Source of the DNA: Alicyclobacillus sp. SO9
GTDB lineage: Bacteria > Bacillota > Bacilli > Alicyclobacillales > Alicyclobacillaceae
DNA: 64,000 nt
Reading direction: 5' to 3'
Assembly: GCF_016406125.1 (NCBI RefSeq)
Contig: NZ_CP066339.1
Span: 558,001 to 622,000, forward strand
Each line of letters begins with the position of its first letter. The stretch's first letter is position 1. Made by a program: the position numbers and the translations under genes. Positions 17,371 through 20,952 of this stretch are shown piece by piece. Below the pieces are notes generated by a model. That model searched no databases. It worked only from the letters and a program-made list of their open reading frames with translations, and was not told the origin of the DNA.

Positions 17371-17991
17371 ATGACACAGTCGAAGCCCGTGAAGATGCAG
17401 GAAGTGGTTGTAGTGGAAGGGATTCACGACGCGCAGGCCGTGCGGCGTGCGGTAGAGGCAGATGTTTGGGTTATTGGCGGCGATCGCGTTGCCAATCGCT
17501 TCCTCAACGAACTGAAGCGAGCTGCCGCCGTGCGAGGTGTGATTGTTCTCACCGATCCCGACGGGCCAGGCGAACGCATTAGAGAACGCATTCGCCGCGC
17601 GGTCCCCACTGCGAGACATGCGTTTATCCCCAAGCACCAAGCTTCGGGACGTCGTGAGGGGAAAAATAAAATTGGCGTGGAGCACGCTCGTCTCGATGTT
17701 ATTCGGGAGGTCCTTGAAAACGCACGAGGTGCTGAGGAATCGGTTTCTGAAAAATTGATTTCTGAGGCATCGGTTTCTGTACGCCCCCTTTTTACGGTAC
17801 AAGACTTAACGGAGGCTGGATTGATTGGGGGAAGTTCTGCCGCCTCAAGGCGTGAACATGTCGGTGATATCCTCGGGATTGGCAGTGGAAACGGGAAAAG
17901 TTTTCTGAGGAAGCTAAATGCGCTTCGGGTCACCCGTGAGGAATGGGATCGGGCTTTGAATCATCTGAAACAGACGGAGGAGTCTTCTTAA
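17371..17991 (+). CDS. rnmV: ribonuclease M5
   Basis: Toprim-domain RNase that matures 5S rRNA. VVVEGIHDAQAVRRAV, VIVLTDPDGPGERIR and the PKHQA...KNKIGVEHA region match RnmV. It follows tatD with no gap. Length 206 is about 20 above the family because of a Glu/Ser/Val-rich stretch (EESVSEKLISEASVSV) between the Toprim part and the C-terminal helices; the stretch shows repeated TCGGTTTCTG-like DNA. Confidence 0.94.
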   Translation: MTQSKPVKMQEVVVVEGIHDAQAVRRAVEADVWVIGGDRVANRFLNELKRAAAVRGVIVLTDPDGPGERIRERIRRAVPTARHAFIPKHQASGRREGKNKIGVEHARLDVIREVLENARGAEESVSEKLISEASVSVRPLFTVQDLTEAGLIGGSSAASRREHVGDILGIGSGNGKSFLRKLNALRVTREEWDRALNHLKQTEESS

Positions 17992-17993
17992 TC

Positions 17994-18863
17994 GTGACAC
18001 AACGCAAGGATAAGTCTCCAACCAAGTCTCTGAAGGAACTTCTGACAACTCACGGATTTCAGTTAAAGAAATCACTGGGGCAAAACTTTCTTATCGATAC
18101 AAACGTGTTGAACCGTATTCTCGATGCTGCGGAAATCACTCAAAACGATGGAGTTCTGGAGGTTGGACCCGGTGCAGGTGTTGTCACCCGGGAATTGGCA
18201 GAAACAGCTAAACAGGTCGTCGCTGTGGAAAAAGACACAGCGCTCGAGCCTGTACTGAAGGATTCCCTGTCGCAGTTTGACAATGTGCAAGTGATTTTTT
18301 CCGACATACTCGATGTAGACATGAATGAGTTGTGGAAACACTTCCAGACTTGCCAACGGGTTGTCGTTGTCGCCAATCTCCCCTACTATGTCACGACTCC
18401 AATCCTGTTTCAAATCTTGGAATCTGAGGTACCCGTGGACACCATTGTGGTTATGGTTCAAAAGGAGGTCGCGAATCGGCTCACTGCGTCTCCAGGCACG
18501 AAAGACTATGGGGCACTGACTGTCGCTGTCCAGTTGCGAGCGAAAGTCGACACAGTCATGCAGGTCCACCCCGGTTCATTTCTCCCGCCTCCCGGAGTAG
18601 ACTCCACGGTTGTGCGACTACGGTGCTATCCGTCACTGCCTGTACGATTGCAAAGTGTAAAAACGTTTCGCAAAGTCGTACGAGCAGCTTTTGCGACTAG
18701 GAGAAAGACACTGTACAACGCATTAAGCAACGGACTTGTTTTGCCAAAGGCACAGGTTGCTTTGGCGCTCGATGAAGCCAACATTGACAAGAGCCGCAGA
18801 GGGGAGACGCTTACCTTGGACGAGTTTGTACACTTGTCTAATTTCTTCCACGAAATGCTGTGA
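17994..18863 (+). CDS. rsmA: 16S rRNA dimethyladenosine transferase RsmA (KsgA)
   Basis: Dimethylates A1518 and A1519 of 16S rRNA. Motifs KKSLGQNFLID, VLEVGPGAGVVTREL, the catalytic NLPYYVTTPI and the C-terminal helical domain are present. GTG is chosen because GGAGGA lies 12 bases upstream and it gives 289 residues, the family size; the open frame continues back 17 codons into rnmV. It is the last gene before the large repeat array. Confidence 0.95.
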   Translation: MTQRKDKSPTKSLKELLTTHGFQLKKSLGQNFLIDTNVLNRILDAAEITQNDGVLEVGPGAGVVTRELAETAKQVVAVEKDTALEPVLKDSLSQFDNVQVIFSDILDVDMNELWKHFQTCQRVVVVANLPYYVTTPILFQILESEVPVDTIVVMVQKEVANRLTASPGTKDYGALTVAVQLRAKVDTVMQVHPGSFLPPPGVDSTVVRLRCYPSLPVRLQSVKTFRKVVRAAFATRRKTLYNALSNGLVLPKAQVALALDEANIDKSRRGETLTLDEFVHLSNFFHEML

Positions 18864-18966
18864 CTCTAACCCAATTGCTGCACCCGGCTTACCTGAGATA
18901 TCCGGCTAAGTGAGCTTCCTGGGGGCTGCCGGGGGCTGTGCCGGGGCCTCGCTGCCTGAGGTGGCT

Positions 18967-19056
18967 GGTGAGGCTGGTGAGGCTGGTGAGGCTGGTGAGG
19001 CTGGTGAGGCTGGTGAGGCTGGTGAGGCTGGTGAGGCTGGTGAGGCTGGTGAGGCT
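18967..19056 (+). repeat. ten exact 9-bp tandem repeats
   Basis: GGTGAGGCT repeated ten times without a mismatch, joined directly to the first long repeat unit. The lack of divergence indicates recent expansion or active slippage. Open in all forward frames, hence misleading as coding. Confidence 0.95.
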
Positions 19057-19058
19057 GG

Positions 19059-19456
19059 TTAGTGCCTCGAAAGATCCCTATTGTCGGAGGGGCGATGCCA
19101 TTGTGATCCCAAGGATCCCTAATGCCACCTTGCCCGAAGCCTTAGTGTCATAAAAGGGCACTAATGTCGGGAGAGGCAGAGTGGAGCGCTGCTGTTAAGG
19201 AGCAAAGGGATCACTATTTCGGAGGGCCTGCTGGTGATAGTGATCGAATCGTTCACTATCATGTGGCGGATATCGAGATAAGGATCAACGGGATCACTAA
19301 GCAACGGCGCAGACACCCCCCCACCCCCGTGTCCGTCGCAGCAGCTGCCAAATTCATTCCATGATTAGGGTGCAACTTCAATTTCAGTTGATTAATGGCA
19401 GTTTACCGCTCGTTTTTTTCGTTCGAACGCATTGCCTGCGGTGCCTGGGCGGGCAA
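19059..19456 (+). repeat. long repeat unit, copy 1
   Basis: Unit of 398 bp beginning TTAGTGCC. That word pairs with GGCACTAA about 100 bp later. Further elements: the word GGGATCACTA twice and its relatives GATCCCTA twice; a hairpin with arms GATAGTGATCG and CGTTCACTATC (one mismatch) at 19236-19260; GACAC/GTGTC around a C-rich loop; and CTGCCA/TGGCAG enclosing CAACT/AGTTG. Confidence 0.9.
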
Positions 19457-19852
19457 TTAGTGCCTCGAAAGATCCCTATTGTCGGAGAGGCCATGCCATT
19501 GTGATCCCAAGGATCCTTAATGCCACCTTGCCCGAAGCCTTAGTGTCATAAAAGGGCACTAAGGTCGGGAGAGGTAGAGTGGAGCGTGGGTGTTAAGGAG
19601 CAAAGGGATCACTATTTCGGAGGGCCTGCTGGTGATAGTGATCGAATCGATCACTATCATGTGGCGGGTCTCGAGATAAGGATCAACGGGATCACTAAGC
19701 AATGGCGCACCCCCCCACACCCCCGTGTCCGTCGCAGCGGCTGCCAAATTCACTCCATCATTAGGGTGCAACTTCAATTTCAGTTGATTAATGGCAGTTT
19801 ACCGCTCGTTTCTTTCGTTCGAACGCATTGCCTGCGGTGGCTGGGCGGGCAA
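19457..19852 (+). repeat. long repeat unit, copy 2
   Basis: Unit of 396 bp, about 95 percent like copy 1 by eye. The central hairpin is perfect: GATAGTGATCG, loop AAT, CGATCACTATC, at 19634-19658. The first arm can instead pair with GATCACTAT about 30 bases upstream, giving two exclusive folds. Confidence 0.9.
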
Positions 19853-20218
19853 TTAGTGCCTCGAAAGATCCCTATTGTCGGAGGGACGATGCCATTGTGA
19901 TCCCAATGATCCTTAATGCCACCTTGCTCGTAGCATTAGTGTCATAAAAGGGCACTATTCTGGGGAGAGGTAGAGTGGAGCGCGGGTGATAAGGAGCAAA
20001 GGGATCACTATTTCGGAGGGCCTGTTGGTGATAGTGATCGAATCGATCACTATCCTGTGGCGGATATCGAGATAAGGATCAACGGGATCACTAAGCAACG
20101 GCGCAGACACCCGCATCGACTGTGTCCGTCGCAGCGGCTGCCAAATTCACTCCATCATTAGGGTGTAACTTCAATTTCAGTTGATTCATGGCAGTTTACC
20201 ACTAATTCTTTCGTTCGA
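19853..20218 (+). repeat. long repeat unit, copy 3, truncated at its end
   Basis: Similarity to copies 1 and 2 stops near TTTCGTTCGATC, about 30 bp short of a full unit. The perfect 11-bp hairpin is kept at 20030-20054. This copy differs more from the others than they do from each other. Confidence 0.88.
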
Positions 20219-20466
20219 TCCCGTTGATCGACCGGGCCTCGCTGCCACTCGAAACCCTCATCATGAGGCTGGTCCGCGGATCGCTATTTTGGTATTTGCA
20301 GCTGCCATGATGAAGGTGCCGTCCCTTTGCTCTTGAAACAGCCCCTTTCTTTCACAGAAGACGAATCTGGCATATACTGTTGTAGCAACGTAGAATATTC
20401 ACAACAGTCACAACGGCATCTGGGTCAGAGACATTCGGACATGCTTTCCTAAACGGAGGGACACCA

Positions 20467-20952
20467 ATGATGTGGTCTTTTTTGAGCCCAACCAAAGGCG
20501 CTATGAGTTTGACAGAAGTTGTCGAGGATATTCTTTTGGACATTCGCAACAAACCTAGTGACGATTTTCGCTTGATGATTGGTACTGATTCACAGCCCAA
20601 GGAAAGCGGACGCAGCGTCACCTTTGTATCGGCCATTATTTCGCATCGTGTTGGAAAGGGAGCCAGGTACTACATTCACAAGGACCGGGAGAACCATCTC
20701 TTTTCTTTGCGGCAACGGATGTTTACGGAAGCAGCTTACTCGTTGCAACTAGGCGGAATGTTGTCCGAGGAGTTTCAGGAGCGGGGTGAAACAAGACCCA
20801 TTCAAGTTCACTTGGATATTGGCGAACGCGGTGCAACAAAGCAGATGATTCGGGAAATTGTATCCTGGATAACTGCCAGCGGGTACGAGGCTATGATAAA
20901 GCCTGATTCGTTTTGCGCCTCGAAGGTGGCAGACCGTTATACCAAAAGTTAG
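20467..20952 (+). CDS. ykuK: YkuK-like RNase H-fold protein (DUF458)
   Basis: Predicted RNase H-like fold of the YkuK family. The first strand has RLMIGTDSQPK, with an acidic residue where RNase H proteins bind metal, and a second acidic strand is IQVHLDIGERG. Activity is not established. Length 161 is normal. GGAGGG lies six bases before two tandem ATGs. B. subtilis ykuK is elsewhere in its genome, so its place here between the repeat array and yabG is unusual. Confidence 0.83.
   Translation: MMWSFLSPTKGAMSLTEVVEDILLDIRNKPSDDFRLMIGTDSQPKESGRSVTFVSAIISHRVGKGARYYIHKDRENHLFSLRQRMFTEAAYSLQLGGMLSEEFQERGETRPIQVHLDIGERGATKQMIREIVSWITASGYEAMIKPDSFCASKVADRYTKS

Follow-up and report, generated by a model that had tools for sequence, protein, structure and literature searches.

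Repetitive extragenic palindromic (REP) sequences and bacterial interspersed mosaic elements (BIMEs) are described, in the portions of the literature drawn on here, as species-specific, regularly spaced intergenic palindromes that number more than 100 per genome and are targets of insertion sequences (ISs), and roles in protein binding and chromosome organisation have been suggested for them (PMC2817692, PMC1525189). IS1111 and IS110 elements seek REP palindromes via a guide RNA (seekRNA or bridge RNA), and both ISPa11 and IS621 target REPs, according to the sections cited (PMC11187229). In Bacillus subtilis, about 70 palindromic Noc-binding sites (NBSs) are reported in the cited part of the source to lie around most of the chromosome, leaving the terminus region free (PMC4331003). 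Here we describe an array of palindromes between rsmA and ykuK in a 64,000-nt stretch of Alicyclobacillus sp. SO9 (NZ_CP066339.1, positions 558,001 to 622,000; the whole stretch is called the window), together with the dispersed family to which it belongs. The units of this family, which we call hexads, carry six phased palindromes, and their sequences make it probable, in our judgement, that each unit is a double-stranded-DNA docking platform for a putative oligomeric DNA-binding protein. The initial annotation of the locus had offered a structured RNA family, a mobile repeat or a protein-binding array; the last appears to be the best supported of the three.

A hexad is a non-coding unit of ~260 bp with six palindromes of 21-25 bp, of the form TAGKGATC-N5-GATCMCTA. 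Their centre-to-centre gaps of 41, 42, 53, 42 and 41 bp are mirror-symmetric, correspond to about 4-4-5-4-4 helical turns (at ~10.4 bp per turn), and are identical in all three copies of the window array, which stand head to tail with start-to-start distances of 398 and 396 bp, just as first described. The GATAGTGATCG-AAT-CGATCACTATC palindrome singled out at that time as a hairpin is there (imperfect in copy 1), as are the repeated GGGATCACTA words. What had been taken for one hairpin among loose words is, however, an ordered set of six palindromes in every copy: the alternative partner proposed for the first arm exists but is really made up of half-sites of other palindromes in the regular set, and the paired TTAGTGCC and GGCACTAA, also present, are the outer halves of modules 1 and 3. 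The array holds no protein gene, as noted originally, but only short open reading frames (ORFs; longest 104 aa among those of at least 60 aa considered). The remainder of the window contains no further hexad-type (class A) or tetrad-type (class B, described below) site above the thresholds used.

Searching the genome for the unit returned many dispersed copies. BLASTN with the array gave 88 matches, a sequence-only hexad profile gave at least 155 (150 of 891 candidates scored), and the exact pattern TAGNGATCN5GATCNCTA occurs 174 times against none for the pattern reversed, so the hexad palindromes lie far beyond chance. These genome-wide totals are lower bounds. A survey of 57 stretches (631 kb, window included) contained 103 complete hexads, defined by six sites of at least 4 bits at near-standard gaps, in 66 array pieces; when pieces starting less than 3 kb apart, mostly pieces split by insertions, are merged, there are 61 sites. 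Arrays have 1 to 5 units, head to tail, and the hexads are divided between the strands (52 plus, 51 minus). The script tolerated outer gaps of 38-46 bp and central gaps of 48-58 bp. Within these ranges the outer gaps are 41 (256), 42 (152), 40 (2) or 43 bp (2), that is, 41 or 42 bp in 408/412, and the central gap is 53 (88), 52 (14) or 51 bp (1), 52 or 53 bp in all but one of the 103. Gaps from hexad to hexad vary between 97 and 425 bp (among those under 500 bp), and we do not claim helical phasing between successive hexads on an R of 0.17-0.37 over five trial periods with a best p of ~0.004 at 10.4 bp, uncorrected.

Class-A sites of at least 12 bits number 677 in the 631 kb, with 611 inside complete hexads and another 40 within 700 bp of one. 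By inspection, 25 of the leftover 26 were assigned to partial or IS-split units; the last (locus L081, genome position 698855) duplicates a site at 701002 across a transposase gene. A shuffled-sequence control reached a maximum of 14.1 bits, and 5 bits or more at 10 of ~630,000 positions. Inspection gave ~15 partial or interrupted units, a class in which fragments are under-detected, against the 103 complete ones.

Divergence is distributed unevenly within the unit. Over all 5253 hexad pairs, divergence is 15% in half-sites and 43-51% in linkers of equal length, yet a length difference of at least 2 bp between linkers arises in only 229 of 26,265 comparisons. Among nearest equal-length paralogues (95 hexads), differences fall at 526/9120 half-site and 2177/10767 linker positions. 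In the 43 pairs of adjacent tandem hexads, whose members have a common local origin, differences affect 129/4128 half-site positions (3.1%), 379/4366 linker positions (8.7%) and 84/1290 positions in the five central bases, with 21/215 linkers of unequal length; the p value for the half-site versus linker contrast, 4e-28, treats positions as independent. Since tandem half-sites diverge nearly three times less than linkers, the sites look maintained in place, which indicates in situ selection on both half-sites and spacing. Both features expected of a protein-binding array are present: two-fold-symmetric half-sites under constraint, and whole-turn spacing between sites (in hexads and in the tetrads described below).

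Summed over modules, pairing between the two arms of the palindromes equals that expected from independence (z 0.6), with modules 1, 4 and 6 below and modules 2 and 3 near it. Arm pairing is slightly under independence in genome G061 (z -1.9), and in genome G001 the palindromes combine unlike halves (z -7.3), unlike a hairpin. Because of these summed results, with no overall hairpin covariation, the half-sites appear to be read on double-stranded DNA. At G001 loci L141-L160, class-B palindromes join AATAAGGG-type and AATAAGCG-type halves, hinting at two kinds of protomer or an asymmetric dimer.

A second class of arrays was first seen as weak matches beside some hexads (78 sites in 15 of the 57 loci). 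In this class B, palindromes resembling AATAAGCNCYTCNGARGNGCTTATT come in fours, with gaps in the SO9 genome of 51, 61-62 and 51 bp (5-6-5 turns), and the linkers of these tetrads are almost unrelated despite the fixed spacing. A profile built from 17 tetrads gave at least 161 matches in the genome on both strands, which we read as 47 sites among the matches listed; 13 of the 47 lie within 2 kb of the start of a hexad array, whereas 300 random draws averaged 2.3 and never exceeded 8. Among the matches listed, class-B runs with a period of ~112 bp (genome positions 460375-461351, 3325511-3326162, 3239232-3242154 and 3767679-3768610) are perhaps a third arrangement, made of pairs of sites.

Relatives extend beyond SO9. 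The tetrad profile matched 8 of the 59 genomes of the order under stricter filters, SO9 included, in five genera, and the hexad profile matched 6, again with SO9, two of them weakly. In the 20 loci fetched from each of two genomes, 29 tetrads hold 116 of 117 sites (G061) and 22 tetrads hold 88 of 89 (G001), and there too the spacing is kept between nearly unrelated linkers. Choosing these loci by profile biases them towards the spacing, but a motif scan along the full length of each retrieved stretch (5-20 kb) turned up almost no lone sites. Genome G020 has tetrads at 52-62-52 bp, many pairs at 62 bp, and runs of 7 to 14 KAWGTGATC-N5-GATCACWTM sites at 42 bp with few exceptions; the run inspected has similar linkers, unlike hexads and tetrads, whose linkers differ within the unit, and may be an ordinary tandem repeat. 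Genome G007 carries two runs at 53 bp, and G006 combines a 10-site run at 41 bp with one 51-62-51 tetrad. The palindromes are genus-specific across carriers. Exact hexad patterns were found in SO9 alone among the 59 genomes of the order, as was the exact pattern among 398 genomes of the class and a BLASTN match to one unit among 61 genomes; exact-pattern and BLASTN searches miss diverged arrays that profile models detect. Two hexad patterns had no match in a public species genome collection from which SO9 itself was possibly left out, and the hexad unit had none in phages, plasmids or IMG/VR. A G020 array and a tetrad pattern likewise found nothing in the same type of phage and plasmid searches. 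With a G061 tetrad, ~40-bp matches appeared in 14 plasmid records, 13 of them from Clavibacter and one from Burkholderia; those listed cover 5-6% of the query, and we judged the matches irrelevant.

The sequence thus supports the sites, their rigid phasing, a constraint that acts on half-sites as well as spacing, and an overall absence of hairpin covariation. A fixed site number with mirror symmetry and whole-turn phasing, preserved despite heavy linker divergence and seen with other palindromes in sister genera, would imply a defined multi-dimer nucleoprotein complex. From these features we infer protein binding and oligomerisation on hexads. Six two-fold-symmetric sites, in mirror order at 4-4-5-4-4 turns, would lie on about one face of the helix; about six dimers of a sequence-specific protein could bind there next to one another and, by oligomerising, form a single dyad-symmetric complex that spans ~240 bp. 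It is because of this array geometry (sites, phasing, constraint) that we envisage a multi-dimer complex on double-stranded DNA. Platforms of a sister type, with four sites at 5-6-5 turns and a different recognition sequence, would exist both in SO9 and in other genera. The complexes may organise or anchor the chromosome, like Noc at NBSs, SlmA at its binding sites (SBSs) or RacA at its sites, without being any of these, and units seem to increase in number through tandem duplication on the local scale and through some form of copying over longer distances. The chromosome-organising role is more weakly inferred, by analogy with Noc and from an origin-proximal, intergenic distribution. A bolder version, doubtful but worth entertaining, is a hitherto undescribed bacterial chromatin-like system, in which hundreds of mirror-symmetric operator sets of fixed geometry (hexads at 4-4-5-4-4 turns, tetrads at 5-6-5, open arrays at ~4 or 5) would nucleate one fast-diversifying family of DNA-binding proteins into defined higher-order complexes, which would shape the origin-side half of the chromosome within a single bacterial family. 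Keyword searches of the open-access literature, a scope outside which most subscription papers fall, returned no description of such arrays. If they do organise the chromosome, they would represent a new system for dispersed-site architecture.

The distribution that suggests this role is measured from dnaA, at base 367 of the chromosome. The 61 hexad sites have a median distance from dnaA of 0.50 Mb against 1.30 Mb expected (Kolmogorov-Smirnov p 1.3e-6), and per fifth of the distance, from the origin outward, they number 32, 6, 10, 7 and 6, thinning but still present in the last fifth. Arrays are intergenic as judged by a crude ORF picker, except that several ORFs of 90-183 aa overlap arrays and the weak last site of one array enters a 382-aa ORF. 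In SO9, convergent genes flank 31 of the 64 arrays, versus 38/190 other gaps of at least 100 bp (p 3e-5) and 20/71 gaps of at least 300 bp (p 0.02).

Several observations weigh against protein platforms with a role in the chromosome. No binding protein has been identified for the arrays, and no candidate stood out among their neighbours. Neither ORF clustering nor Pfam (on 120 of 128 neighbours) revealed a recurring gene family beside arrays. Arm pairing exceeds independence in module 5 (z +3.5) and at 35 G020 sites (z +2.8). The 47 tetrad sites, counted among the matches listed, are only mildly skewed towards the origin (p 0.04), and their distribution does not differ significantly from that of the hexads (p 0.27). 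The convergent bias is absent from the loci of G061 (2/21) and G001 (4/20). Array positions are hardly shared between genera among the loci compared, where the reciprocal pairs that neighbour an array in both genomes number 1 of 26 for SO9 and G001 and 1 of 3 for SO9 and G061. The hexad definition and the profiles favour conserved copies, which means that too few decayed units are counted and constraint comes out somewhat too strong; this bias should be small, because typical sites score 16-33 bits. Finally, wide spread without obvious function is also typical of selfish repeats.

Indeed, the main rival of the platform reading is that the arrays are selfish, BIME-like repeats. A transposase or recombinase would recognise the palindromes and copy hexads or tetrads as entire units; the phasing would reflect the complex of that enzyme and bring the host no benefit. 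We consider this unlikely, though it has to be taken seriously. The 103 complete hexads at ~60 sites bear out the dispersal that the initial annotation had in mind with its mobile repeat, and genus-specific palindromes, positions unshared between genera among the loci compared, local tandem duplication and IS110 insertion into palindromes, as known for REPs, all fit such an origin; constraint confined to copying-competent lineages could also explain part of the pattern. However, the other half of that proposal fared less well, since no mobiliser was found. The Y1/REP-associated tyrosine transposase (RAYT) family (PF01797) has no match in SO9, which rules out a REP/RAYT system for this genome, and none in carriers G061, G006 and G027, while it is present in 30 of the 59 genomes of the order, including carriers G001, G016, G020, G007 and G062. 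Moreover, half-site constraint persists after tandem duplication, partial or interrupted units, as judged by inspection with fragments under-detected, are few beside complete ones, and no autonomous gene-bearing copy was noticed in the loci read, where no systematic search was made. If the arrays are selfish after all, they would be a kind of interspersed palindrome repeat in a genome without RAYT.

An improbable alternative to docking platforms is that the arrays insulate or terminate transcription as DNA-bound roadblocks between genes. The convergent bias in SO9, against either set of control gaps, speaks for this, but the ORF calls are crude, the bias is missing from the loci of the other two genomes, and many arrays, the window array included, lie between co-directional genes. 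We give still less credence to a family of structured non-coding RNAs or to a DNA repeat that forms cruciforms. Single modules are able to fold as hairpins, and module 5 has the excess of arm pairing given above; pooled pairing is nonetheless at independence and negative in modules 1, 4 and 6 and in G001. RNAalifold on 74 hexad cores (74 of 76 full copies, with 2 incomplete copies left out) gave -2.17 kcal/mol, with double changes in 1 of 11 pairs. None of 4227 Rfam families reached its gathering score in the window, and the single match in a further Rfam scan (E 3) was far under its own. An RNA role for the hexads is unlikely, and the structured RNA family of the initial annotation was not borne out. 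A one-off local tandem duplication without function, suggested by three tandem copies beside a 9-bp minisatellite, is refuted by the ~60 dispersed sites in SO9 and the sister arrays in other genera, and has next to no chance of being right.

The features of the window array and the IS110-family copies are collected in Table 1. Pfam identified the two flanking genes as rsmA and a ykuK-like gene, in line with the original proposal.

Table 1. Features of the RsmA-YkuK interval (window positions) and IS110-family copies (positions in loci L047, L065 and L069). PWM, position weight matrix; TRF, Tandem Repeats Finder; M1 and M6, modules 1 and 6.
Feature	Position	Strand	Basis or remark
Hexad 1	19058..19301	+	palindrome centres 19070, 19111, 19153, 19206, 19248, 19289 (PWM scan, spacing)
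Hexad 2	19456..19699	+	palindrome centres 19468, 19509, 19551, 19604, 19646, 19687 (PWM scan, spacing)
Hexad 3	19852..20095	+	palindrome centres 19864, 19905, 19947, 20000, 20042, 20083 (PWM scan, spacing)
Inter-hexad spacer 1	19302..19455	+	M6 centre to next M1 centre 179 bp
Inter-hexad spacer 2	19700..19851	+	M6 centre to next M1 centre 177 bp
Spacer-like tail, ends in GGGCCTCGCTGCC	20096..20246	+	comparable tails at only some other arrays
Minisatellite, 9-bp unit GGCTGGTGA, ~10 copies	18963..19054	.	TRF; immediately upstream of hexad 1
rsmA (rRNA adenine dimethylase), flanking gene outside element	17943..18863	+	Pfam PF00398
ykuK-like gene (RNase H-like fold), flanking gene outside element	20467..20952	+	Pfam PF04308
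IS110-family copies	L047:5330-7010, L065:5139-6818, L069:5274-6952		all in module 5 of hexads

The 13-base word GGGCCTCGCTGCC, described initially as occurring on both sides of the array, was found at 18944 and 20234. As direct repeats marking the ends of the element these copies found no support: the 3´ copy is in the tail common to some arrays and the 5´ copy precedes the minisatellite. With regard to ends of the type found in miniature inverted-repeat transposable elements, similarity between arrays begins near module 1 and often stops near module 6, as judged by eye. Short tandem repeats occur in 48 of 108 array flanks versus 24 of 85 other intergenic gaps (p 0.025), with a unit that differs from array to array where present; they may reflect slippage during replication close to bound arrays.

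A gene-linked element was rejected on the neighbour ORF clustering and Pfam results. The commonest neighbour family is MFS_1 (4/120, in a view of the 25 commonest of 172 Pfam families), and 24 of the neighbour proteins were also run through Pfam singly. The neighbours are ordinary genes, with one LuxR-type regulator and two sigma-54 activators among them, although a DNA-binding neighbour occurring once could escape the view of the 25 commonest families. In locus L043 (4882-9342), two similar hexad pairs of like orientation are separated by 3.7 kb; of the two 266-aa ORFs in the intervening DNA, one is a LuxR-type response regulator.

The three genomic copies of the IS110-family element (1679-1680 bp) are nearly identical and share the module-5 palindrome as insertion site, two copies lying in one arm and the third in its mirror image, which likely reflects a guide-RNA-directed target preference. 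At L073 (4784-6299) and L081 (4871-6852), arrays contain or adjoin Mutator-type and DDE_Tnp_1-type transposase genes, and around the L081 transposase gene one class-A site, together with the class-B sites that follow it, recurs on both sides at equal distance.

How do these arrays compare with the described systems? In common with IS110 and IS1111 elements at REPs, the IS110-type copies here all sit in the same palindrome of the hexad; the element is, however, a passenger of the array and not its maker. Like REPs and BIMEs, hexads are many, regularly spaced, intergenic palindromes, but they belong to a genome without a Y1/RAYT transposase and lack overall hairpin covariation (module 5 and G020 being exceptions), and we know of no BIMEs with fixed sets of six or four sites at mirror-symmetric, whole-turn spacing. 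RacA and RefZ of B. subtilis, a spore former, are DNA-binding proteins with origin-proximal inverted-repeat sites (ram and RBM, the RefZ-binding motif, respectively); to our knowledge these sites are far fewer and do not form phased hexads. NBSs, and the sites of SlmA in Escherichia coli, invite comparison as dispersed palindromic sites: NBSs leave the terminus region free, and the 61 hexad sites crowd the origin. The sequence and length of the NBS are unlike those of the hexad palindrome. Hexads thin towards the terminus but persist, with 6 of the 61 in the last fifth, and whereas NBSs and SlmA sites are single, the sites described here come as phased hexads and tetrads.
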